Shown here: positions 10,445-42,400 of the stretch, in pieces | Layout of the letters: the number at the start of each line of letters is the position of its first letter | How positions within the stretch are numbered: the first letter of the stretch is position 1 | Source of the DNA: Planctomycetaceae bacterium | GTDB lineage: Bacteria; Planctomycetota; Planctomycetia; Pirellulales; Pirellulaceae | Direction: 5' to 3' | DNA length: 56,527 nt | Assembly (NCBI GenBank): GCA_007694185.1 | Contig: RECD01000099.1 | Location: forward strand, 1-56,527 | The notes under the pieces: model-generated | The model's database searches: none | What the model saw: only the letters and a program-made list of their open reading frames with translations | What the model was told of the DNA's origin: nothing | Translations under genes and position numbers: made by a program

Positions 10445-13240
10445 TTAGCGGGCGGTATTGTCGTAGATCGGCAGGTGGCGATAGTAGACTTCCAACGACA
10501 GCAAATTGAGCGTCGTCAGGTAGAGCCGACCGGCATGGACGCTCCAGCGATCGGGAACGGGATGGACCGGGTCCCAACTCCCTTCCATTGGGCCGGATTT
10601 GACTTGGCCATCCAAAAGGATCGGCTTGAGTTTTCCGTTCCACTCTTGCCAGTGATTGCCCCCCATGTGGAACATCACTTGGGTGGCGTAGTACCAATAA
10701 TAAGTATCACGCTGCGGGTTGAGGCGGTCCCCGATCTGGGGTGGGAATTGGGCCAGGTAGTCGGCCGCGCTTTGCATATCCGGGTTATCGCGCCGCCAGC
10801 CGGAATACATCCGCATCAGGATCGCTACCGAAGTCATGGCGGGCGTGACTTCGCGGCCGTGAGCTTGGGCGGGTGTATCAGGTGCGAACGGGTTGTAACG
10901 GTATCGGTCGCTCCGTGAGCGATCGAGCTTGGCGTATTCCAACCAGCGATCGATTCCTTCGTAGGTCTCTTGGGGAACCCGGAGTCCGGCCAATTCACCG
11001 CTCTTGAGGGCCATCATCATCCAGCCACTGACGCTCGTATCGCTGCTGACCTGCGGCTGGTATCGCCAGCCGCCACGTTGACGATGCTGGGTCAAAACGA
11101 TGTAGTCGATCGATTTCTGGGCGGCGTCGCGCAGCGTTTCGTCGCGGCTCATGCCGAAAGCTTCGCAGAGCGCGAGCGCGGCGATCCCGTGAGAATAGAA
11201 CGCGACACTCTGATCGCTCGCGGGATTCTCGGACCGATAGAGGTTGCCGTCGGGAGCTTGCATCGAGATCAAGGCCTTCAGGCCACGGTCGACGACATTG
11301 GCGTAGCGGTGTTGTTGGTGGGTGTAGCCGGCACCCTGAAATGCCAGCAGGCAAAGGCCCGTCGCGGCCGTATCGCTGCGGAGCAGCACCTGCTCACCAT
11401 GGCCCTGCAGGGACCAATGCCCCTCGGACGCCTGCCGCGAAGCGAGGTATCTCAGCCCGCGCTCGATCGCTTCCTCGGTTTCCGGGCCAACCGCAGCCGC
11501 AGGGATGGGCGCTGCCCCCGAGTCGGTTCGCAAAATGCGGCGTTGGAACAACTCCGCAGCGGCGATCTCGGCACCGACGGGCTGCATCGGCCCCCCGGCT
11601 GCTTCTGCCCGACGGCGAAGGTCAGGACGCGGGGCAAAGTCAGCGATCTGCGGTTGTTTTTCCGCGGAGGCGACCGCCCCGAAATGTCCCTTTGCCGGAC
11701 TAGCCATCGTTCCAGCCCCGCCGGGCAAGGGGAAAGCCGGAGGCAATTCCGTCGCGGCGAGTCCCTCCGTGAAGGTCGCACCGGAACGCCCGGAGGCACG
11801 TCTGGACTCGGATAAAGCGAGCCGTTCGGCGGGACCGGCCGGATCGGGTCCTGGATTCGGCTCCGTCGCCGTCGTGGCCGCAGTCCCGGCCGCCGTCGCG
11901 GTGGCGAGCGGCTGGGTGTCAATCACTGGCCCGCTGGCGGAACCCGACCGGTTAGCGGTTTGGGAAGTCGTCCGGTCGGAGCGATCAGCCGGCCGGGTTT
12001 CGGCAGAACCCGCCGAGATGTGTGGGACGTCCGGTGAAAATTCGGCAGGACCTGTCCGGGCCTTATCAGCAAGCTGGGCGAGGCCTGATCGGAGCGGACT
12101 GGGAGGGCTTGGAAATGATTTGTCGGCTTCGAAACTCGAACCGGCAGCGACGGGTCGGGAGGTGCGGGCCAACGGCAACTCGCCCGGGTCCAAGGCCCGC
12201 TCGACATCGGGTTGGGAGCGAACCAACGGCACCGACTGAGCGGCGGGCGCGGCCCCGGCGGGGTCCGGCGTCGGTCGTCCTGATCGCGCTAGCGTCCGAG
12301 ACGGTGCGACGTCCGATTCGGCGACACGGGGCAGGGACGCCGCTTCGGCCCAGCGGTCCGGGGCCGCTGTGTTCGCGAGCAATGGCGAAGGAGATGCGGG
12401 TGTTGCTCGCAACTCGGGCAACTCGTCCGGCAGCGCCGACGCGGCCGAAGGAATGGTCTGCGGTTGGCTAGCGCGACGCGGGTTTGCTTCGGCTGTGTCC
12501 GATAGGCGATCGGTCGGCTCCGAGCTGGGGACGGGGCGTTCGGGGACCTGGGGCACCTCGACGGGAGACAGCGGGCTTTCGCTGGGGGCGAGTGACGAAA
12601 CGTTGCGAGACGGTTGATTCGGGGAGTCGGCCGGCAGCGGCATCGAATCTTCGGGCTTCGAACGGTCTGCCACGGCTTTCCGCGGTTCGGGTGGAAGACT
12701 CGGCTGCTCTGGGGAAAACTCCGGCAGCGACGACGGTTGGTTTCGCGGCGCGAGCGCATTCCGCTCGAGCGGTTCGACCTGGGACGACGCCTCGGCCGGG
12801 ACGGGCTGCGCCCAATCCGGTTGTGAAACCCGAGGGTCGGGCTGGGAGAACAAATAGTCAGGGACGGTTTTGGGTTGAGCGATTTGTTCGGGCCTGCTCC
12901 CGCTGAATGTCTCCGGAAAGTAGCGGCCAAAGACGATCACGTTGACCGCCATCATCAGCAAGCCTAAGTGGACGAGGATGCTTGCCAGAAACCCCAACTG
13001 GGCCGACTTCTCGACGAACCGCGAGGCCACAAACCGCGACAAGAGCGAGAGCCCGATAACACCCGAGACGACCAGAGCGACATAGGTCCAAGCGTTGTAG
13101 AGGTAGCGCGGATCATCGAACCGGAACTGGGAAACCAAGGTGTAGCCGACTAGCGACCCGAGCAGCATCAGCGCAAGGTCGAGCGGCCACATCCGTTCCG
13201 GAGGTGCCGGCGGCGAGTCGACCGGTGAAGGTGAATTCAT
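10445..13240 (-). CDS. Membrane-anchored toroid protein with Pro/Ser-rich linker (TonB-like layout)
   Basis: 931 residues. ATG 13240 is chosen because TTAGGA lies about 8 nt upstream. Three TM helices lie at about 17-38, 50-70 and 82-105; the basic loop between TM2 and TM3 predicts N-in, C-out. A roughly 500-residue Pro/Ser/Ala-rich low-complexity linker (about 110-615) follows, then a C-terminal alpha/alpha-toroid of the squalene-cyclase/prenyltransferase fold (about 625-925) with QW-like repeats (QASEGHW, QRGGW, then SVSGW). No DxDD cyclase motif is present, so enzymatic cyclisation is unlikely. It is the last gene of a TPR-ExbB-ExbD operon, 47 bp after exbD. The anchor, linker and periplasmic head recall TonB, with a different head. 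The functional reading is inference. Confidence 0.85.
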   Translation of the reverse strand: MNSPSPVDSPPAPPERMWPLDLALMLLGSLVGYTLVSQFRFDDPRYLYNAWTYVALVVSGVIGLSLLSRFVASRFVEKSAQLGFLASILVHLGLLMMAVNVIVFGRYFPETFSGSRPEQIAQPKTVPDYLFSQPDPRVSQPDWAQPVPAEASSQVEPLERNALAPRNQPSSLPEFSPEQPSLPPEPRKAVADRSKPEDSMPLPADSPNQPSRNVSSLAPSESPLSPVEVPQVPERPVPSSEPTDRLSDTAEANPRRASQPQTIPSAASALPDELPELRATPASPSPLLANTAAPDRWAEAASLPRVAESDVAPSRTLARSGRPTPDPAGAAPAAQSVPLVRSQPDVERALDPGELPLARTSRPVAAGSSFEADKSFPSPPSPLRSGLAQLADKARTGPAEFSPDVPHISAGSAETRPADRSDRTTSQTANRSGSASGPVIDTQPLATATAAGTAATTATEPNPGPDPAGPAERLALSESRRASGRSGATFTEGLAATELPPAFPLPGGAGTMASPAKGHFGAVASAEKQPQIADFAPRPDLRRRAEAAGGPMQPVGAEIAAAELFQRRILRTDSGAAPIPAAAVGPETEEAIERGLRYLASRQASEGHWSLQGHGEQVLLRSDTAATGLCLLAFQGAGYTHQQHRYANVVDRGLKALISMQAPDGNLYRSENPASDQSVAFYSHGIAALALCEAFGMSRDETLRDAAQKSIDYIVLTQHRQRGGWRYQPQVSSDTSVSGWMMMALKSGELAGLRVPQETYEGIDRWLEYAKLDRSRSDRYRYNPFAPDTPAQAHGREVTPAMTSVAILMRMYSGWRRDNPDMQSAADYLAQFPPQIGDRLNPQRDTYYWYYATQVMFHMGGNHWQEWNGKLKPILLDGQVKSGPMEGSWDPVHPVPDRWSVHAGRLYLTTLNLLSLEVYYRHLPIYDNTAR

Positions 13241-13287
13241 GATTGGGGTCCTAACGCCGCGAACGGACGAATCAACGGTTCGGCGGT

Positions 13288-13716
13288 TCAATTTCCACCC
13301 GTCGGTCCTTCGCGAGTGGTCACCGAGTAGTCCGAAACGCCGACCTGGTTGCACAAATCCATCACGCTGACCACCGGCTGGAACGAGGTGGAGGCGTCGG
13401 CGCGGATGATCACCGATTGGTTGACGGGGTTGTCGACGACCGCGGCCGCCAACAGACGCCTGAGTTCCTGATAGTTGGTCGCTTGACCTCGGAGGTAGAC
13501 GCTACCTTCCTGATCCACATCGATCACGATTTCCCGTGGTCTGTGGACCATCGGCGAAGCCGAGGTCGCCGAAGGGAGGACGATGTTCAGACGCCGCTCC
13601 TCTTCTTCGAACTGGCTGGTCACCAGAAAAAAAATCAGCAGCAAGAAGACGACATCGATCAGCGGGGTCAGGCTGAGATTGGCAATGACGCTCGAACGCT
13701 TGATCGTAACGGCCAT
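13288..13716 (-). CDS. exbD: ExbD/TolR-type biopolymer transport protein
   Basis: 142 residues from ATG 13716, 10 bp after the exbB stop. A short cytoplasmic N-terminus is followed by one TM helix at about 15-35 carrying the conserved LTPLIDVVFLLL motif, with the proton-relay aspartate at D21. The remainder is a periplasmic domain of normal ExbD size. ExbD pairs with ExbB to form the proton-driven inner-membrane motor that energises TonB or Tol proteins. No canonical TonB gene is present; the next gene encodes the toroid protein. An in-frame upstream ATG would overlap exbB and is not preferred. Confidence 0.93.
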   Translation of the reverse strand: MAVTIKRSSVIANLSLTPLIDVVFLLLIFFLVTSQFEEEERRLNIVLPSATSASPMVHRPREIVIDVDQEGSVYLRGQATNYQELRRLLAAAVVDNPVNQSVIIRADASTSFQPVVSVMDLCNQVGVSDYSVTTREGPTGGN

Positions 13717-13726
13717 GGGCAAAAAC

Positions 13727-14902
13727 TCAGCGGGAAACGCGGCCGCCGGAGGGGACCGGAGAAGCGGCAACCGGGCTCGGGGAGATCGCCGCGGGTTGGC
13801 TGATCGGCGGCGGCTGGACCGACGAATGACCGCCGGTGGACGGATGAGGCGACGCGGGTTTGGTCGGGGGAACGGCGATCGCGTGCAGCGTCCCGTCCGG
13901 ATCGAGCCTCGCGCGACCGACGAAGCGAACCAGCGCCGGCGCGATGCTGAAAGCCAGCCGTTCGATCCGATGGAAGTGTTTGGCCAGCCGATTCTCGAGG
14001 TACTGCGCCAAGATGGCGGCGGGGATCGCGACCGCCAAGCCAGCGAGTGTCGTGACCAGGGCGGTGTAAATCCCTTCGCTGAGCTGTTCGCTGCGGCTGC
14101 GATCCGGCGTCAGCGTGGTCGCTTCGTGGAAGGCCTTGATCATCCCCCAAACGGTACCCAACAAGCCCATCAGCGGGGTGGCAGCGGCGGCCAGGCTGAG
14201 CCAGCGGATCGGCGCGGCCTGATCATCCGCTTCCCGCTGGACCGCTTCTGTCGCCGCGCGCTCGACATCCGCTAAGGGTTGGCCGGTCCGCAACAGCATC
14301 GCCGATATCGCGGTCGCGGCGGCAGAGGGATGCTCACGGCAGGCCGCCAGGGCTGCCGAGGGGCTGAATCGTTCGATCGGATCGATGAGACGTTGCAGCT
14401 TCTTGACCAACGCCGGTGGCACCAGGCGTCGCCGCCGGAGGCTCAACATCCGTTCGAAAGCCAAGGTCACGACAAGCAGCGACATCAGGCCGATTGGGAT
14501 CATGAAGCCACCGCCCTGGGCGATCAGCGACAACAAGTCGATCCCGGTCGGCTGAGGAGCGGCGTCGGCGACAGGTTCGGGAGATTCGGGCTCGAGCAAC
14601 TCCTGGATCATCGCCTCGTCGACCGGCACCTCAAACGGTTCGGCAAAGGGCGGTTCGGCAAACGTATCTGGGCCTTGCGCCCCAGCGAAGCCGCTGCCGA
14701 AAGGCAACATGAAAGCCAACCAGAGCATCGCCAGAGCCAAACCGGCACCTGGGGAAACACCTCGTCGAACGATCCCTGACTCGGTCGTCCCCCGCGATAG
14801 GACGGCAGCGGGCCGCTGCGACCGCAGGAGCCGGTTATGGCTCGGCGAATTCGCGTCGGCGTGAGAGGAGCGAAGTCGGGTGAGCATCAGCAAGCATCGC
14901 AT
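13727..14902 (-). CDS. exbB: MotA/TolQ/ExbB proton-channel protein with extended N-terminus
   Basis: 391 residues. ATG 14900-14902 follows the TAA of the upstream TPR gene directly, which suggests translational coupling; no strong ribosome binding site is seen. A long N-terminal extension includes a signal-like hydrophobic stretch (about 52-76) and an acidic Pro-rich segment (about 77-118). The ExbB core has three TM helices near 128-150, 230-255 and 275-300, with the family sequence TPLMGLLGTVWGMIKAF. The C-terminal tail is Pro/Ser-rich. The extended N-terminus is a known variant of ExbB. It should form the ring around ExbD dimers. Confidence 0.93.
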   Translation of the reverse strand: MRCLLMLTRLRSSHADANSPSHNRLLRSQRPAAVLSRGTTESGIVRRGVSPGAGLALAMLWLAFMLPFGSGFAGAQGPDTFAEPPFAEPFEVPVDEAMIQELLEPESPEPVADAAPQPTGIDLLSLIAQGGGFMIPIGLMSLLVVTLAFERMLSLRRRRLVPPALVKKLQRLIDPIERFSPSAALAACREHPSAAATAISAMLLRTGQPLADVERAATEAVQREADDQAAPIRWLSLAAAATPLMGLLGTVWGMIKAFHEATTLTPDRSRSEQLSEGIYTALVTTLAGLAVAIPAAILAQYLENRLAKHFHRIERLAFSIAPALVRFVGRARLDPDGTLHAIAVPPTKPASPHPSTGGHSSVQPPPISQPAAISPSPVAASPVPSGGRVSR

Positions 14903-17900
14903 TTAGGAACCCGACTTGGTTGGGGTAGGGCCAGTCGGATTGGCCAACTTGAACCCCATCAGGCGGAGGGCTTCGAGTCGTTCTTTGCTCTTGGAAGCCA
15001 GTTCATGCCGGGGATGCTTGCGAACGACATAGTCGTAGAACTGGAGGGCGATTTCTGCCGATTTGCGTCGCGGTTCGCCCCCGCGGACGCCCTGCATCAT
15101 CAGTTCGGCACAGCGACCCGCCTCGAAGCCGCTTTTGGCTTGCCAATTCTTGATCGCATCGGGGGCCTGATCGGCGCCGTACCCGTACATCACCCGCTGG
15201 AACTCCGGAATGGCCGCGGCGAAGTCACGGTCGGCGAAGCGGATTTCGCCGATCATGAACCGCGCCCGAGCTCCCAATTCGTTGCGTTCTTTCTCGGCAA
15301 CCTCTTGATAGATCGGCACCGCTTCGGCCGCCTTGCCCGACTGCTGCAGCGAGTTGGCGGTTTCGTACTTGGCCTTCGTCAGGTAACCCGAGTTCGGAAA
15401 CCGCTCCGCCAACTCATCGAACCACTCGATGGCAGGCTCCCATCGCTGGAGCTGCGCGAGACTCTGTCCGCCATGCAAATAGACCAACTCACGAACTTGG
15501 CGATCGGACACCTTCTCGAACCCTGCTTCCCGTTCGTCCTGCTCAACGATCCGCTTTCGGGCGACCTCATAGGCGGCCAAAGCGGCCTCGAAATCGGCAC
15601 GCTTGAAATGGCCTTCACCGATCATCAACAGGGCGTCAGCGAAGAAAGTCCCATCAGGAAACTGCTCGGCCAATTGCTCAAAGACCTGGGAGGCCTGCTG
15701 AAAATCCTCCGCCTTGTACAGCGACCAGCCTTGACGATAAAAGGCTTTCTCGCGAAGTTCCGCCGTTGCCTCGGGCGCCGCGGCCGCGGCGGCGAAAGAG
15801 CCGACCGCCTCCGGCCAGGCTTCGCGAGCGTACCGTCGTTGTCCGACGAAATAGTGGGCCTCGGCGGCCTGGGAAGAAGCTGGAAACTTCTCGACCAATT
15901 CCTGGAACCGCGTTTCAGCGGGCCCCTCTTGGCCGCTGTCTTTGAGAGCCCAGGCCAACTCCGCGAGCACCTTTTCGAGTTCCGGGTAATCGGGAACGGA
16001 TCGGATCAATTCTTCGAGCCGTCCCGTTGCCTGCTCCGGCAATTGTTGGCTTTGATCGATCAACGCCAACTCATACAACGCATGACCGCGACTGATCCCG
16101 GTCGGCACGGCGACGAGAAACTCCTCGAACCGTCCCCTGGCGTCGTCGAGCCGGTCGAGCGACCGGAGGCACATTCCCAAGGCGAGTTTCGTGTCGGAGT
16201 TCAGGGCGTGGTCGGGGTGCTGCTCGAGCAACTGCTCCAGCGGCTCGATCGCGTCAGCAGGTTGTTCGCCACGCATCAAATTCCACCCACGGCCGTAAAG
16301 GGCGTAGGGCTTCAAGGCGGGCTCAAGCCCGGACTCCAACAGCTCGCCGAACCGGTCAGCGGCCGCCATGTGATCTCCTTGGCGGGCGGTCATCAAGGCG
16401 AGGCGGTACCTGCCTTGGTCGCTCCAGGGGCTCTTAGCGAAATCGCGGACGAGCCGCTGCCAAGCCTCGGCGGCTTGCTCTTCGTCCCCGGCGAGCGAAT
16501 GGGCTTGCCCCAATTGCAGGATCGTTTCGTCGGCGTGAGCCCAATTGGAATCGGCCGCCAGCGACTGTTCCAAAGCGGCGACCGCGTCGGGGGCACGCTG
16601 CTCGGAGAGATGAATCGAACCGACGATGAACATCGCCTCGGCTTGTTGGGCGGGCTCGAATTCGGATCGATGCTGTTCGATCAGCCGAATCGCCTCATCG
16701 GGCTGGCCCGCCACCGATTGGGCGGTCGCGGCCCGAATCACCCACAGCGGCCATTGAGGCTTGGCCTGAGAGGCCGGGTCGGCGACAAGTTTCAAATACT
16801 GCTCCGCCGCCTTGTCAGCATCACCGCGGAGTATCGCGGCCTCCCCGATCACGTGGCGAACATCGGGGACGAGTGCGTCCTTGGGAAACTTTTCGAGAAA
16901 CTCGTCACCCCATTCGCTCGCCGACTCCGCTTCGTCCAACTGCAAGGCGGCGAAGGCGGCGTTGTACAAGGCCCGCGGCGCCTCAGGCGCGGCCGGATGC
17001 TCCCGATAAATTTCAACGAACAGCTTCATCGCGTCCTTCGTCTGATCAGGCAGCAACAACGTGGCCTCGGCCAAGTCGAGCCGCAACGTCACGGCGTAAG
17101 GCCCGGCGGTGCCGGCATCGAGTTGCTTGCGTGCGACCGCAACTGCCCCGGCCGGATCGTTGGCTCGAAGCGCGATCGTGGCCAGCCAATGGGCAGCCTC
17201 GGTCGAAGAGGCCAGATCGTTGGACGAAAGGACTCGCTCAAACCGTTTAGAAGCCTCGGCGAGGTCGCCGGCGCGATAAGCCGCTTGGGCCGAGGCGAGC
17301 TTCGCCGAGGCGGCATGCGGCGAGTCGGGAAAATCCTTCAGCAATCGCTCATAGATCTCCGAGGCCTCCGCAGGACGATTCGCCTGGACCAACGCGAACG
17401 CTTGTCGCAGCAGCGCATAAGGCCGCTCGGGCCCATCGACCGTCGCCACCTTCTGAAACCAATCGATCGCGTCGTCGAACCGCTTTTGCTGAATGCTGGT
17501 GTCGCCCATGCGAATCTTGGCATCGACCAGCAACGGAGCATCCTGACAACCTTCCAGCACCTGACGGTAAGCCGCCGTCGCGTCATCGAGCCGTCCGACG
17601 TCCTCCAGGGCGAGGCCCCGCGAATACACCGCCTCCCAGCGCAGCGGCGACTCCTGTGCCGATTCGATCGCCAGCAGTCGGTCATAGAATTCGATCGCCT
17701 GCTCCGCCTTGCCAAGCGAATAGGCCGCCTCCCCGCTGTAAAACAAAGCTCGATCCAAATATCGGCTAGTCGGCTTTTCCCGGATCAAGGTGCCAAAGGC
17801 GTCGAGGCTCGCCTCCAGACGTTTGGGGTCACGACTCTCACCCTCGCCCGCAGCGGCGAACTGACACCAACCGAGGTTGACCAAACTCTCCTCGCGGACA

Positions 17901-18295
17901 TCCGAACGGACATCTTTCGTCGCCCGCTCAAAGGCGGTCGCGGCGGCAACGTAGTCCGGCTCGGGCTGCTGCATGTAGCAGACGCCCAGAAAATGCGAAG
18001 CCTTGGCCGCCAAGGGTTCATCCGGATATTCCTTAAGGAACTTCCTCCAGGCGTCGATCGCCAACGGCAGCGCCCCGTTGGTCTGAAAGTTCGCCGCGTC
18101 GGCGTAGGCCGCCACGGCCTGCTCGTTCACCTCGTCGGCGGCGTGCAGCATCGACGACAGAAAAATCGACGAAACGGGACCGCATCCGAGCCCGACCGAA
18201 AGCACGAGCGCAGGCAATCGAAATGCCGCTGCGAGAGGCGAAAGTCGTCGAAAAAACATCGCGATCCGTTGTCTTCGTGAGGCGGTAAGCGGCAT
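14903..18295 (-). CDS. Secreted tetratricopeptide-repeat protein, 1130 aa
   Basis: 1130 residues with an N-terminal signal sequence, followed almost entirely by TPR-like helical hairpins (repeated A-x-Y/F-x-A-L and FP-D-S patterns such as FPDSPHAA and FPASSQAAEA). The signal follows the second Met, so ATG 18259 is an alternative start. Such proteins act as periplasmic or outer-membrane scaffolds, as YbgF/CpoB does beside Tol-Pal. First gene of the operon TPR > exbB > exbD > toroid, all within a few tens of bases, so it likely works with the ExbBD machine. A TAAACT -10-like element lies just before the first ATG, but the promoter is not clear. Confidence 0.88.
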   Translation of the reverse strand: MPLTASRRQRIAMFFRRLSPLAAAFRLPALVLSVGLGCGPVSSIFLSSMLHAADEVNEQAVAAYADAANFQTNGALPLAIDAWRKFLKEYPDEPLAAKASHFLGVCYMQQPEPDYVAAATAFERATKDVRSDVREESLVNLGWCQFAAAGEGESRDPKRLEASLDAFGTLIREKPTSRYLDRALFYSGEAAYSLGKAEQAIEFYDRLLAIESAQESPLRWEAVYSRGLALEDVGRLDDATAAYRQVLEGCQDAPLLVDAKIRMGDTSIQQKRFDDAIDWFQKVATVDGPERPYALLRQAFALVQANRPAEASEIYERLLKDFPDSPHAASAKLASAQAAYRAGDLAEASKRFERVLSSNDLASSTEAAHWLATIALRANDPAGAVAVARKQLDAGTAGPYAVTLRLDLAEATLLLPDQTKDAMKLFVEIYREHPAAPEAPRALYNAAFAALQLDEAESASEWGDEFLEKFPKDALVPDVRHVIGEAAILRGDADKAAEQYLKLVADPASQAKPQWPLWVIRAATAQSVAGQPDEAIRLIEQHRSEFEPAQQAEAMFIVGSIHLSEQRAPDAVAALEQSLAADSNWAHADETILQLGQAHSLAGDEEQAAEAWQRLVRDFAKSPWSDQGRYRLALMTARQGDHMAAADRFGELLESGLEPALKPYALYGRGWNLMRGEQPADAIEPLEQLLEQHPDHALNSDTKLALGMCLRSLDRLDDARGRFEEFLVAVPTGISRGHALYELALIDQSQQLPEQATGRLEELIRSVPDYPELEKVLAELAWALKDSGQEGPAETRFQELVEKFPASSQAAEAHYFVGQRRYAREAWPEAVGSFAAAAAAPEATAELREKAFYRQGWSLYKAEDFQQASQVFEQLAEQFPDGTFFADALLMIGEGHFKRADFEAALAAYEVARKRIVEQDEREAGFEKVSDRQVRELVYLHGGQSLAQLQRWEPAIEWFDELAERFPNSGYLTKAKYETANSLQQSGKAAEAVPIYQEVAEKERNELGARARFMIGEIRFADRDFAAAIPEFQRVMYGYGADQAPDAIKNWQAKSGFEAGRCAELMMQGVRGGEPRRKSAEIALQFYDYVVRKHPRHELASKSKERLEALRLMGFKLANPTGPTPTKSGS

Positions 18296-37695: not shown

Positions 37696-38325
37696 TCACG
37701 ACTCTCCCACCGCGGCTTGCGGCCGGACGATTTTGACGCCGCGTCGGCCGCTGGGCAACTTCGCGGTCACGCTGATTTTTGTGATCGGATACCGCCCCGG
37801 CACCCACCGCTGATTACTTTTGGTGGCGAAGATTTGTTGCGGAAAGACCAACCGCTCACGAGGGGCCAAAGCCGATTGCCGGTGCAGGAAATATTGGCCG
37901 TTGAGGTCGATCGTCAGGTTCGGGAGTTCGTAATCGGTGAGGTTCTGAATCACGATCGCATCGGTCAGGATCGCCGCTTGCCCCCCAACGACCTCGACCG
38001 GTTCCTTTACGATCGACACTTCGACTTCCAAAGGAGCGTCTCGGGCTTTGCCGAAGAGCGCCGCGTAACCGCTGAGGGCGACCAGTGGGATCAGGCAGGT
38101 GAGCAGCAGCAGGACGGACAGGGCGCGGGGGGAAAGTCTCGCGGCGGGGGCGGTTCGCACGGCGTCGGAACGGCCGTTCGGTGGCTCAGCGGGTTCGGCG
38201 AGCGGCGGATTTGGCGAAGGTATCGCCGCGTCGGACGGAGAGGGGGCGGTCACGGTACGGTCCTCGTAAATTGATCGATCTGCGGACTGGACGCAGGTGA
38301 GACACCGCACGCCACTGCCGCTCAT
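37696..38325 (-). CDS. Single-TM protein of the vWA/coiled-coil/toroid operon
   Basis: 209 residues. ATG 38325 overlaps the stop of the upstream toroid gene as ATGA, so translation is probably coupled. The N-terminal ~65 residues are Pro/Ala/Ser-rich and cytoplasmic, one TM helix follows (LSVLLLLTCLIPLVALSGYA, about 68-90), then a roughly 110-residue beta-rich extracytoplasmic domain (NLTDYELPNLTIDLNGQYF, cited in part). I recognise no family. Position as the last gene of the operon suggests a partner of the toroid or coiled-coil protein. Confidence 0.75.
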   Translation of the reverse strand: MSGSGVRCLTCVQSADRSIYEDRTVTAPSPSDAAIPSPNPPLAEPAEPPNGRSDAVRTAPAARLSPRALSVLLLLTCLIPLVALSGYAALFGKARDAPLEVEVSIVKEPVEVVGGQAAILTDAIVIQNLTDYELPNLTIDLNGQYFLHRQSALAPRERLVFPQQIFATKSNQRWVPGRYPITKISVTAKLPSGRRGVKIVRPQAAVGES

Positions 38326-39494
38326 CGTTGATAAATCGGCAAATAATGATGCGTGACGCTGAGGCTAAGCACCGCCAGCGAGGTCGCGTACGCGGAACCG
38401 TAGTTCCGTTCTTCACCCCGGGTACCGGCCCACGAACCGTCCGCGTTCTGTTCGGGCAACAACAATTGGCTGACGATTTCCGCGGCCTCCTCGCCATGGC
38501 GACCACCCCGTTGGTGCATCGCTTGGGCGTAGTAGTAGGTTCCATAGAAGAAGAACCGCTCGTCCAATTTGGGAGGGTGCTGCAACAGCCAATCGGCAGC
38601 CGACAAGGCTTGTGGCGAATCGTATCGGCCGCAAACCTGCATCGCCAGCAGGCCGGCCGCGGTCATCGCGAAGGTGGGTCGGCTCTGTCCCGGCGTGTAG
38701 CTGAATCCGGCCGGTGACTCTCGCGGACTGCCATCCGGTTCCAAGGGAGAGGTGAAAGACATCTCGAGGTAACGGACGGCTTGATCGATCGCCTCACTCG
38801 GGATCGCCATCCCCTCGTTTTTTGCAGAGCGAAGCGCCATCAACTGCCAGACCGAGACCGAGAGGTCCGAATCGGTCGATTCGGGAGTGTACCTCCAACC
38901 ACCTTGGTTGATCGACGATTTCTTGACCGCCTGCGCCGCCAGGATCAACCGGATCGCCGGTTCCATGGCGTCACGGATCCGAATGTCCTGAGCGTCATCC
39001 GCACCCATACCGGCCATTTCGGTCAGCATCAACGAGGTGATCCCGTGGCCGTACATTCGCGAGCCGTCGGAGCGGCCGAAGTAGCCTTGCGCGTCCTGCC
39101 GAGCGACGCGAGCGGGTGCGATCGGGTTGACGACGAAATCGATCGCCCGCCGCATCGCGAGCGCCTCGTCGGATGGGTCCCCGGGCAGGATCCCGACGCT
39201 GGCCATGGCCATGATCGCCAACGAGGTCATCGAGGTGTCGTGGCCGCGATCGTGGATCGAGCCGTTGGCATGTTGCAGCGACAGCAGGTGGCGAATCCCA
39301 CCGCGGACGGCACGGCGAATGGCTAGCTCTTCGGCGGCAACCGGTCCGCCTACAGGCGTGCTGCCGCTTGGAGCCTGGTCGCTGCCGGCGGGCGGCTGGG
39401 CCCGGGCGGGCGTGACAGCGCACGCCAAGCAAAGGCCGGCGACCAACAGCGGTCCGAACATTCTGCGGGGCATGCGGGGACTCCGTCGGGTCAT
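38322..39494 (-). CDS. Secreted alpha/alpha-toroid protein (squalene-cyclase-like fold)
   Basis: 390 residues. ATG 39494 overlaps the upstream stop as ATGA and starts a signal peptide (MFGPLLVAGLCLACAV, then PARAQ). The mature protein is a toroid with QW-like repeats (QHANGSI, NQGGWRYTP, QNADGSW) and the block SDLSVSVWQLMALRSA. It lacks a DxDD motif, so it is not a working cyclase. It ends THHYLPIYQR, echoing YRHLPIYDN at the end of the other toroid protein in the window. It is probably a periplasmic protein or glycan-binding head working with the coiled-coil and vWA partners. Confidence 0.87.
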   Translation of the reverse strand: MTRRSPRMPRRMFGPLLVAGLCLACAVTPARAQPPAGSDQAPSGSTPVGGPVAAEELAIRRAVRGGIRHLLSLQHANGSIHDRGHDTSMTSLAIMAMASVGILPGDPSDEALAMRRAIDFVVNPIAPARVARQDAQGYFGRSDGSRMYGHGITSLMLTEMAGMGADDAQDIRIRDAMEPAIRLILAAQAVKKSSINQGGWRYTPESTDSDLSVSVWQLMALRSAKNEGMAIPSEAIDQAVRYLEMSFTSPLEPDGSPRESPAGFSYTPGQSRPTFAMTAAGLLAMQVCGRYDSPQALSAADWLLQHPPKLDERFFFYGTYYYAQAMHQRGGRHGEEAAEIVSQLLLPEQNADGSWAGTRGEERNYGSAYATSLAVLSLSVTHHYLPIYQR

Positions 39495-42400
39495 GGTTCT
39501 CGTCCTCGTTCGGCGATCGCTCGAAAGTAAGCCTCGATTTGGCTGCGGAACTCCGGGGAGACTTCGATCCGCCGCTGGATACCGGTGTCTTCGGCCTCCA
39601 GTTGCCGCAGCCGCCCCCAATCGCCGCCGCGAGGATCGACCGTTCCCAGACGGAAGGAATCGGGTTCGCTACCGAGATTGCCCAGGCCGGCTTGGGACGA
39701 AGCCGCGTTGCCGGGCTGGCCGTCGGCCGACTCCCCGGGGGCGTTCGCCTCTTCACCGGCCGGACCGTTGGGCCCGTCGGCCGAGGGCTGCTCGCCCGGC
39801 AACGTCCGACGCATCGCCAAGCGTTGCATTTGTCGCCGGGCTTCGGCGGCAAGGGTCGGCGAATTGGTCTGAGCGGATGCCGATTGCGCACCGCCCTCGG
39901 CAGTTTCGGCCTGAGTCCCAGCCGCCAGTTCTCCGCCGGCATCCTGGCCGACCGCAGACGGGTCGGTATCGCCGTTGGGCTGACCGGCCGGCGACGGCTG
40001 CTCCCCTGCCCCGGGCGGTTGTGGCGACGGCGACTGGCTTTCCTGCCCGCGTTGGGACTGAGTCATCGAGCGATCAAGCTCATCCAGAGTCCGAGCCAAC
40101 TGGTTGGCCGAATCACCCTGGCTGTCGGCTTCGTCGCCGCGACCGTCGGCCCGCGTGTCACGCGACATGCGTTCGAGTCGCTCGGCGAGTGCCTCAGCCT
40201 GCTCGGCAATCGCCCCCTCGGCCACGCTCAATCGCTCGGCGGCGACAGCAGCCGGCGCGCTGAAATCTGCCTGGTTCGCCGCTTGTTCGGAGGCTTCTTC
40301 CAAGGAGCGGTTGGCCCTAGCTACCGAGTCCTCCGCGACCTGGGCGACAGACTGGGCGATCTCATCGATCGGCCGGGAGTGGTCCTGATCCTCTAACCTT
40401 TCCAGGTGCCGAGCCGCCCGACTCAGGTTTTCCGACGCTCGGGCGACCTCACCTTGAACTTGGGTTTGGGCAAGAGCGGAAGCATCCAGCGATTCCGAAG
40501 TGGCCCGAAGTTCGGGCGCCTCGGCGGCCCGGGCGACGGCCTCGGCCAACGCGTCCCGTTGGGCAGCCAGATCGACGGCCGCTTGCTCGAGCATCGACTC
40601 ACTCAATTCCGCAGCCGGTCGGGGGCTGTCCAACGGCGGCAGCGGGGTGCGACCGATTTCGGCCAAGTCCTCACGGGCCTGATCTGCGGCTGCCCGTCGT
40701 CGGGTCGCCTCCTCCTGGGCCAGCGCTTCTCGCGTCTGAGACGCTTCGACCCGTGCGGCAGCCTGATCCCGACGACGCCCGAGTTCGGGGTCATCGGGGC
40801 GCTGCTGTAACTGCTTCTCGGCCTCCGCCAGTTGTCGTTCGGATTGCTGGGTTTGTCCGCGGGCATTCCGAGCCTGCTGCTCCGATTGCCCGGCTGCCTG
40901 ATTGACGCGATTCTGGCGACTACGGACTGCGCCGGCGAGCGTATCGCGTGCCTGGCGTTGGAGGTTCTGCATGTCCCGCTGTTCCACCTTACGAGGATCA
41001 CCGGGCAAGGCCGCCTCGGGGTCACCGCCGAGCCTTTCGACCGAGTCTGCGATCGCCTCCAAACTTGCGGTCGATTCGGCGAGCTGTTCACGAAGGTTCT
41101 CGGCGACCGAGTGAAGGTCGTTCATCAACTCCTGTTCGGCGGAGCCGATTGTCGAGGCGGCCTGCGTCGCCTGCTGCAGCGATTCAATGGACTCCTCCAA
41201 CCGTTGTCGATCCCGCTGGGCCGTTTCGTTCAAGGGCGGGGAGAGGGTTTTTTGATCCAGCCGCGCGATCGCTTGGCGGGCCGTGTGCAAACGGGAACGC
41301 TGGGCCGCCGAGGTGTGATCGACCGCTTGGCGAATGGCGTCCTCGAGTCGCCGCTTTTCGTCGAGCAGCCCCGGGTCCTGGCGTTCCAGCTCCAATCGCA
41401 GTTCCCGTTCCCGTTGGGCCTGCTGCTGGAGGGTTTGCTGAGCGTCACGGATCGACCGCTGGGCGATCCGTTTGAGTTCTTCACGCATCGCTTCGTTGCG
41501 TTTCAACTCCTGGGCGAGTCGATCGAGCATTTCGCGTGGGTCTGACTGGATCGCATCCGCCAACATCTGGCTGCGGGCAAACTCTTGGTCCAATTGCTCC
41601 TGCAGTTCGAGTTCCTCCTGCAGTTGCATCAGGGGCGACGGGCCTTCCCCGGGCGCCTCTCCGGCTGCTCGCCGAGCACGATCCTCGTAGTGGCTCGCGA
41701 TCTGCTCTAGGGTGCGTGCGGCTTCACCCAAGGGATCGGCGGCGGCGTTGATCGCGGCTCGGGCCGCTGGAGGGTCGGTCGCTTGGTCGGCTTGATTGAC
41801 GGCTTCGCGGGTCGCTTCGGCTGCCTCTCGCATCCGGCGGTCGATCGCCCGCGACGCGATGTCGGCCTCCCGAGCGCGTTCCAACCCCTCGTCGCTCGTC
41901 AGATCCTGGGTATTCGCTTCGTCGATCAGGCCCTCGCGCAAGGCGGCGGCCTGCTCCTCGATCTTTTGTCGTAGCTCATCGAGTGCTTGGGCGTCTTTTT
42001 GGGCCTCCTCGCGAGGGTCTTTCTCACCAGGCTCTACGGCAGGCTCTTGACGGGCCTGCCGTTCGGCATCACGAAGGGCTTGGGCGGTATCCCGCGCCAA
42101 TTCGCTGAGGTCGGGCAGATAGGCCTCCAACCGACGGCGAGCGGAAGCCATTAGCGGCACCAACGATTGACCGATATCGAACAATTCGGCGTGCTTGTCA
42201 TCCAGATCATCGGCGAGGGAAACGGCCGGGATGCGTTGCCACCGGCGGGCCACGATCGCCGCGGAAATTCGGGACATCTCACGATCACGCACCGCATCGT
42301 GCAAGGGTTTTCGCGTCTCCCAACCGATCCCGGCGCGCTCCAAACCGGTCAGGGCGTGATCGAGACCTCGTTGCAGCCGTTCCCATCGGCGGGGGGCATC

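Follow-up and report, generated by a model that had tools for sequence, protein, structure and literature searches.

A toroid-headed putative force transducer encoded with an ExbB/ExbD motor in a Planctomycetaceae bacterium

The closest described counterparts of the system considered here are TonB and TolA of Escherichia coli, which are driven by the ExbBD and TolQR motors. Where PMC12215075 deals with their anchor helices, TonB Ser16/His20 and TolA Ser18/His22 touch the ExbB/TolQ motor, and the Leu and the second Ser of the motor-binding SHLS motif are less conserved for Ton. Williams-Jones et al. (2025) have described transducers from Planctomycetes and other phyla in which von Willebrand factor A (vWA) heads are carried on SHLS-type anchors with a disordered linker; in the sections of that paper drawn on here, the corresponding genes of Planctomycetes-Verrucomicrobia-Chlamydiae (PVC) bacteria often lie downstream of tetratricopeptide repeat (TPR) and motor genes, and further such systems are said to await discovery (PMC12204202). 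Here we present a computational analysis of an operon of four tandem minus-strand genes at positions 10445-18295 of contig RECD01000099.1 of a Planctomycetaceae bacterium (GenBank assembly GCA_007694185.1; the whole stretch of 56,527 nucleotides is referred to as the window). The genes encode, in this order, a TPR protein, ExbB, ExbD and a protein that ends in an alpha/alpha-toroid, just as an initial annotation made from the sequence alone had stated. As the best explanation of the locus as a whole, the operon probably encodes an ExbB/ExbD motor together with a toroid-headed, TonB/TolA-like force transducer.

The order of the genes is conserved well beyond the window. It recurs in many genomes, in several families of the same order, and is therefore more than a chance arrangement. 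In a survey of planctomycete genomes of the kind proposed with the initial annotation, ExbD lies upstream of 92 of 97 toroid open reading frames (ORFs), ExbB of 77 of 92 and the TPR protein of 66 of 78, and all three partners are present at 66 of 78; the hidden Markov models (HMMs) behind these counts were built from the same loci, the window itself was left out, and each denominator counts the toroid ORFs for which the stretch contains 500, 1700 or 5500 upstream bases or more. Where exbD was found, its frame lies no more than 400 bases from the toroid frame, with a median of 4. The complete set of four genes occurs in, among others, Rhodopirellula baltica (L108), R. europaea, Stieleria and Roseimaritima, names that suggest a place for the window in or near Pirellulaceae. 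One set of misses, with several members called Pirellula, has exbD adjoining the toroid gene, with neither ExbB nor TPR detected upstream. The motor residues are likewise in place: aligned to E. coli TolQ, the window's ExbB keeps the positions of T145, T178 and P187, and ExbD keeps the position of D23 of E. coli TolR.

The second line of evidence is the layout of the toroid protein, for which the initial annotation had proposed a three-helix membrane anchor, a Pro-rich linker of about 500 residues and a C-terminal domain, and each of these elements is borne out by prediction (Table 1). In the full-length AlphaFold2 model, which was built with a 31-row full-length alignment, the predicted local distance difference test score (pLDDT) falls below 50 in residues 112-127, 148-378 and 380-563, an ordered toroid follows, and the predicted template modelling score (pTM) of the whole is only 0.49. 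The linker comprises 479 residues by the cut applied, or about 450-480 overall, with 16.5% Pro, and is predicted to be mostly disordered. In a set of 99 proteins, made up of the window's and its relatives in L043-L086 and L099-L178, linker length varies between 362 and 1838 residues. The mean net charge over 100 aligned sequences, again including the window, is +2.2 in the loop between the second and third transmembrane (TM) helices and -0.4 in the TM1-TM2 loop, both loops being delimited by constant distances from the His of TM3; because the TM2-TM3 loop is basic and the TM1-TM2 loop is not, the N-terminus is predicted to be inside and the C-terminus outside, as had been proposed. In four relatives a TolB-type PD40 propeller is inserted into the TM1-TM2 loop (Pfam E-values 2.6e-31 in L097, 3.1e-26 in L098, 5.9e-37 in L199 and 2.8e-33 in L223). 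Three of these proteins, in L098, L199 and L223, are located in TPR-ExbB-ExbD-toroid operons; TM1 of the L097 protein was assigned by eye, and the highest-scoring 19-residue stretch reaches 1.35, under the threshold of 1.45. Propellers of the PD40 type, TolB among them, reside in the periplasm, and since they sit in the TM1-TM2 loop of relatives, their position fits a periplasmic location of this loop and of the head. The model, the loop charges and the PD40-bearing relatives thus predict a periplasmic toroid and argue against a cytoplasmic one.

Table 1. Genes of the operon and elements of the toroid protein in the window
Feature	Position	Strand	Basis
TPR-repeat protein, large, 1130 amino acids (aa)	14903..18295	(-)	TPR_16 and tol_pal_ybgF (CpoB-like) repeats
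ExbB/TolQ-family proton-channel subunit, N-terminal extension	13727..14902	(-)	Pfam MotA_ExbB 1.3e-24, over cut-off
ExbD/TolR-family subunit	13288..13716 (first ATG)	(-)	Pfam ExbD 1.7e-30, over cut-off
Toroid-headed putative force transducer, 931 aa	10445..13240 (ATG)	(-)	Sequence and AlphaFold2
TM1 of transducer (aa 19-38)	13127..13186	(-)	AlphaFold2 helix
TM2 of transducer (aa 50-72)	13025..13093	(-)	AlphaFold2 helix
TM3 (aa 78-107), TonB/TolA-like helix	12920..13009	(-)	AlphaFold2 helix and sequence
Ser87-x3-His91, Ser-His half of the SHLS motor-binding motif	12968..12982	(-)	Sequence, alignments
Pro-rich linker, mostly disordered (aa 112-563)	11552..12907	(-)	pLDDT mostly <50; composition
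Alpha/alpha-toroid head (aa 584-926)	10463..11491	(-)	AlphaFold2 and PDB fold match

The ATG chosen for the toroid gene lies 47 bases past exbD; the GTG at 13354 called by the ORF program falls inside exbD and was rejected. To judge from an N-terminus that looks signal-like by eye, the TPR protein is probably exported. Nearly the whole of the TPR gene is overlapped on the plus strand by an antisense open frame of 1147 aa (14837-18280), which is probably an artefact of composition.

The strongest evidence for a link between anchor and motor, overlooked in the initial annotation, is the Ser-x3-His motif of TM3, a helix whose sequence is KSAQLGFLASILVHLGLLMMAVNVIVFGRY. Both residues are invariant in the 31-row alignment, and across 101 aligned sequences the His column holds 91 H, 9 N and 1 Y, and the Ser column 77 S, 12 C, 8 G and 4 A. 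These rows derive from 114 unique toroid ORFs, obtained after removal of 12 with an identical toroid stretch, of which 13 were dropped because they have no TM segment in the first 230 aa, many of them starting at a contig end; the window and a divergent protein from L176 are included, and near-identical rows were kept separate. When an HMM was used to rank 7273 ORFs, E. coli TolA came 24th and TonB 112th, six of eight planctomycete TonBs took ranks between 13 and 84 and the other two ranks 210 and 1045, with some ExbD helices in the top 60; this retrieval is partly circular, the model having been trained on rows picked for Ser-x3-His.

The motif extends to toroid proteins from elsewhere in the phylum. 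Matches to a toroid profile occur in 265 of the 294 Planctomycetota genomes sampled and in all 60 near genomes, the window's own included. Forty further regions of the phylum were taken from the best toroid matches listed, and a set of 62 toroid ORFs was assembled (53 from phylum regions, four paralogs from the window's own genome and five from L094-L098). Ser-x3-His occurs in a hydrophobic segment before the toroid in 51 of the 62, as against 5 of 328 hydrophobic segments in 295 other ORFs of the same loci, a comparison in which the first figure counts proteins and the control counts segments. The remainder consists of two ORFs that match only with another small residue, five that have a segment without the motif, and four without a segment, three of which are cut by a contig end. 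A representative of the form with one TM helix, that of L214 (APWWMISLVIHAVAF), comes near E. coli TonB (FPWPTLLSVCIHGAVV) and TolA (IIISAVLHVILF). In a phylogenetic tree the motor-linked toroids fall into two separate clades, one a three-TM group with L097 and L098 (support 0.996), the other a five-member group with L199, L223, L222 and the minus-strand protein of L176 (support 0.72), and toroids lacking an anchor are mostly scattered tips, except for one three-member clade. The L176 protein belongs to a divergent second TPR-ExbB-ExbD-toroid operon (L176:3054-9409, minus strand) that has a Ser-x3-His helix of its own; part of an operon-type toroid gene lies on the same contig.

The window itself contains a second toroid paralog (38322-39620, minus strand), which has a signal-like start and no TonB-like anchor, looks secreted, and adjoins an ORF of 1912 aa without a Pfam match at 1e-4. 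A related gene stands directly upstream of single-TM toroids in L203, L213, L216, L219, L220 and L224, with 4-104 bases between the frames. SurA/PPIase domains score over the Pfam cut-offs in four of the five such genes scanned (L203, L216, L219 and L220) and below the cut-off in L213, L224 not being among those scanned; the upstream gene of L214, from another cluster, also gives a SurA/PPIase match below cut-off. Those loci also have, further upstream, a gene belonging to a single cluster; the sole one scanned, in L213, is Mfd, and RNase III was likewise seen in L213. The SurA/PPIase-like neighbours suggest a connection with outer-membrane biogenesis, one that is not general. Around the other ExbD genes of the window's genome (contigs C236, C283 and C157; L090-L093), no retained ORF has a hydrophobic Ser-x3-His segment, so the partners of these ExbD proteins would be of another kind or encoded elsewhere.

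The head is confidently predicted. Modelled alone by AlphaFold2, the toroid reaches a pLDDT of 91.9 and a pTM of 0.91; the best Foldseek match of this model is squalene-hopene cyclase 8paj (5.5e-7), and the VIA structural comparison with 2sqc gives a Z of 26.5 (sugar epimerases score near 23) and, across 292 residues, a root-mean-square deviation of 3.4. The QW-like repeats are directly visible (GLRYLASRQASEGHW; IDYIVLTQHRQRGGW) and the window's toroid sequence contains no DxDD motif, so that this part of the initial annotation stands in full. At the level of sequence the relationship is faint: all Pfam matches of the protein are below cut-offs (the best is SQHop_cyclase_C, 0.0022), TonB_C (PF03544) and vWA give no Pfam match, the C-terminal domain modelling as a toroid, and the whole protein finds nothing significant among PDB sequences. 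With class II terpene cyclases, squalene-hopene cyclase among them, the head therefore shares the alpha/alpha-toroid fold and QW-like repeats, but it is without the DxDD acid and is fused to a TonB-like anchor. Nine residues are nearly or fully invariant in 75 anchored toroids (H684 in 70, E693 in 73, W725, D734 and W740 in 75, Y847, W889 and R905 in 75, E917 in 74); this aromatic and polar set suggests one shared ligand, and the residues may line the toroid cavity.

Such conservation would also fit a membrane-anchored periplasmic enzyme, acting for example on a glycan or an isoprenoid, which the motor positions or gates and whose task is not force transduction. The fold is indeed common to cyclases, sugar epimerases and GH76 mannanases, and secreted-looking paralogs without an anchor exist. 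Nevertheless, the cyclase acid missing from the window's toroid is present in only 1 of the 114 ORF C-termini, linkers extend to 1838 residues, and the Ser-x3-His motif is common to the TM anchors of divergent toroids; we consider an enzyme of this kind unlikely.

Several observations weigh against motor docking and force transduction by the toroid protein. Of SHLS, the window's protein lacks the Leu and the second Ser, whose places are taken by A98 (H+7) and I102 (H+11). On the ExbB side, TolQ Ser28 corresponds to Ala in the window, relatives having A, V, G or T at this position, and the position of TolQ Trp32 falls in a gap of the window's ExbB and is not kept, in a TM1 alignment that is itself uncertain; the TolQ Pro187 contact is kept in the window and in 9 of 10 relatives. 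No change in ExbB TM1 matches the exchange of His for Asn in TM3, a comparison resting on six N rows: the TM1 pattern caught 63 of 82 ExbB matches of the H rows, 6 of 7 of the N rows and that of the Y row, the ER pair is identical in every TM1 caught by construction of the pattern, and a cruder first pattern had frequently hit other stretches. Behind TM3, a strand resembling the D-box, or motor box, that binds ExbD can be recognised only in part, in 50 and 81 of 100 rows by two loose patterns, and a profile of the toroid TM regions found no TonB among PDB sequences, only chance matches to TMEM106B. In the wider set, an ExbD match occurs in the fetched stretch for only 4 of the 62 toroid ORFs, as judged by HMMs whose training set was the window's relatives. 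Five residues in a single helix make a short motif, and together with the lack of a significant TonB profile match and the loss of two of three ExbB contact residues it could be taken to mean that Ser-x3-His is coincidental and the toroid a plain envelope protein co-transcribed with the motor genes. The frequency of the motif in toroid anchors relative to the control segments, the His retained in 91 of 101 sequences and the exbD gene upstream of 92 of 97 toroid ORFs speak against coincidence, which we hold to be highly improbable.

What the transducer might serve is informed by the distribution of TonB and its receptors. In the window's genome TonB_C and Pal were not detected at E 1e-3, and Plug, the plug domain of TonB-dependent receptors, was found neither there nor in four other searched genomes of its genus. 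Among the 60 near genomes TonB_C is present in 29 and Plug in 36; every one of the 29 has Plug, seven have Plug without TonB_C and 24 have neither. Pal exceeds the cut-off in none of the 60, 45 of which give weaker matches. Canonical TonB thus tracks receptors, its 29 genomes all having Plug, and the toroid, present in 60 of 60, does not. Because searches of this organism's genome detected neither TonB_C nor receptor plug nor Pal, TonB-receptor uptake is unlikely, and of the proton-driven machine that the initial annotation had envisaged, the TonB-shaped transducer linked to an ExbB/ExbD motor by gene order and the TM3 motif has stood, while outer-membrane uptake through TonB-dependent receptors has been weakened. 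That the toroid substitutes for TonB at such receptors, a notion in keeping with its TonB-like layout, with the absence of detected TonB_C and with the small opening left by the seven Plug-only genomes, is very unlikely in view of the same receptor counts.

Taken as a toroid-headed force transducer, the protein would operate as follows. An ExbB pentamer and ExbD dimer, assigned by homology, would form a motor that is driven by the proton-motive force and coupled to the TonB/TolA-like protein, with TM3 docking on ExbB via Ser87/His91. The N-terminus and the TM2-TM3 loop would be cytoplasmic and the Pro-rich linker would span the periplasm, the toroid taking the place of the TonB_C or TolA III domain. 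Protons passing the conserved Asp of ExbD and the conserved Thr residues of ExbB would shift TM3 and tension the linker, and we infer that the toroid would attach to a ligand or partner at either the outer membrane or the wall. The TPR protein may serve as a scaffold, as the initial annotation had proposed. Outer-membrane or envelope maintenance is favoured because TonB tracks receptors, because of the likeness to TolQ, TolR and CpoB, and because of the PD40 fusions and the SurA/PPIase-like neighbours of four confirmed loci; a Tol-like maintenance role rather than receptor-mediated uptake is most likely. The best NCBIfam models for the window's ExbB and ExbD are TolQ and TolR, far below their equivalog cut-offs, the best NCBIfam match of the TPR protein is to YbgF/CpoB repeats, and TolB-type propellers are fused in four relatives. 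Unlike Tol-Pal, the system has no TolA head and no Pal over cut-off in the 60 genomes; TolB was not searched for.

The comparison with E. coli TonB and TolA is close in plan: the motor family, the Ser-x3-His of the anchor helix, the extended linker and the C-terminal domain beyond it are alike. It differs in that three TM helices are present, of which TM3 is the TonB-like one, the linker has about 450-480 residues and up to 1838 in relatives, a toroid replaces TonB_C or TolA III, and receptor plug and Pal were not detected in this genome. Judged by its sequence features, the protein would work like TonB or TolA, yet it stands outside the TonB_C family. The vWA-headed transducers, as described in the consulted parts of PMC12204202, are alike in having an unrelated globular head, an SHLS-type anchor, a disordered linker and TPR and motor genes nearby; they differ in the vWA fold, a linker of about 100 residues and often paired tolR-like genes, in place of which the operons scanned here have a toroid, a longer linker and one exbD. 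In the main text of that paper no word starts with toroid, squalene, prenyl or cyclase, and literature searches limited to open-licence PMC papers showed no toroid-headed transducer. We read the present system as a class of ExbB/ExbD-driven transducers with a toroid head, a counterpart to the published class with vWA heads. More tentatively, and with slightly less than even confidence, we propose that the toroid-headed proteins with TonB-like anchors make up a class of proton-driven trans-envelope transducers found across Planctomycetota, in which several members per genome share few motors and a head with one conserved ligand cavity and the multi-TM operon members fill the Tol-Pal slot.

The main texts of essential-gene papers on Planctopirus limnophila (PMC10632474) and Verrucomicrobium spinosum (PMC12283558) mention none of ExbB, ExbD, TonB, Tol-Pal or squalene. 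In the part of an R. baltica array study drawn on here, exbB RB12053 and exbD RB12055, which may or may not be those of the operon, are induced at high salinity (PMC2754498).

If the interpretation as a force transducer is true, a large planctomycete family, whose member in the window has only weak squalene-cyclase matches, would be reassigned to proton-driven force transduction. The operon would then be a candidate for energy delivery to the outer membrane in bacteria in which TonB, receptor plugs and Pal have not been detected, and would widen the idea introduced with the vWA class, that ExbB/ExbD motors accept unrelated heads. Its presence in the model planctomycete Rhodopirellula baltica makes this proposal testable there.

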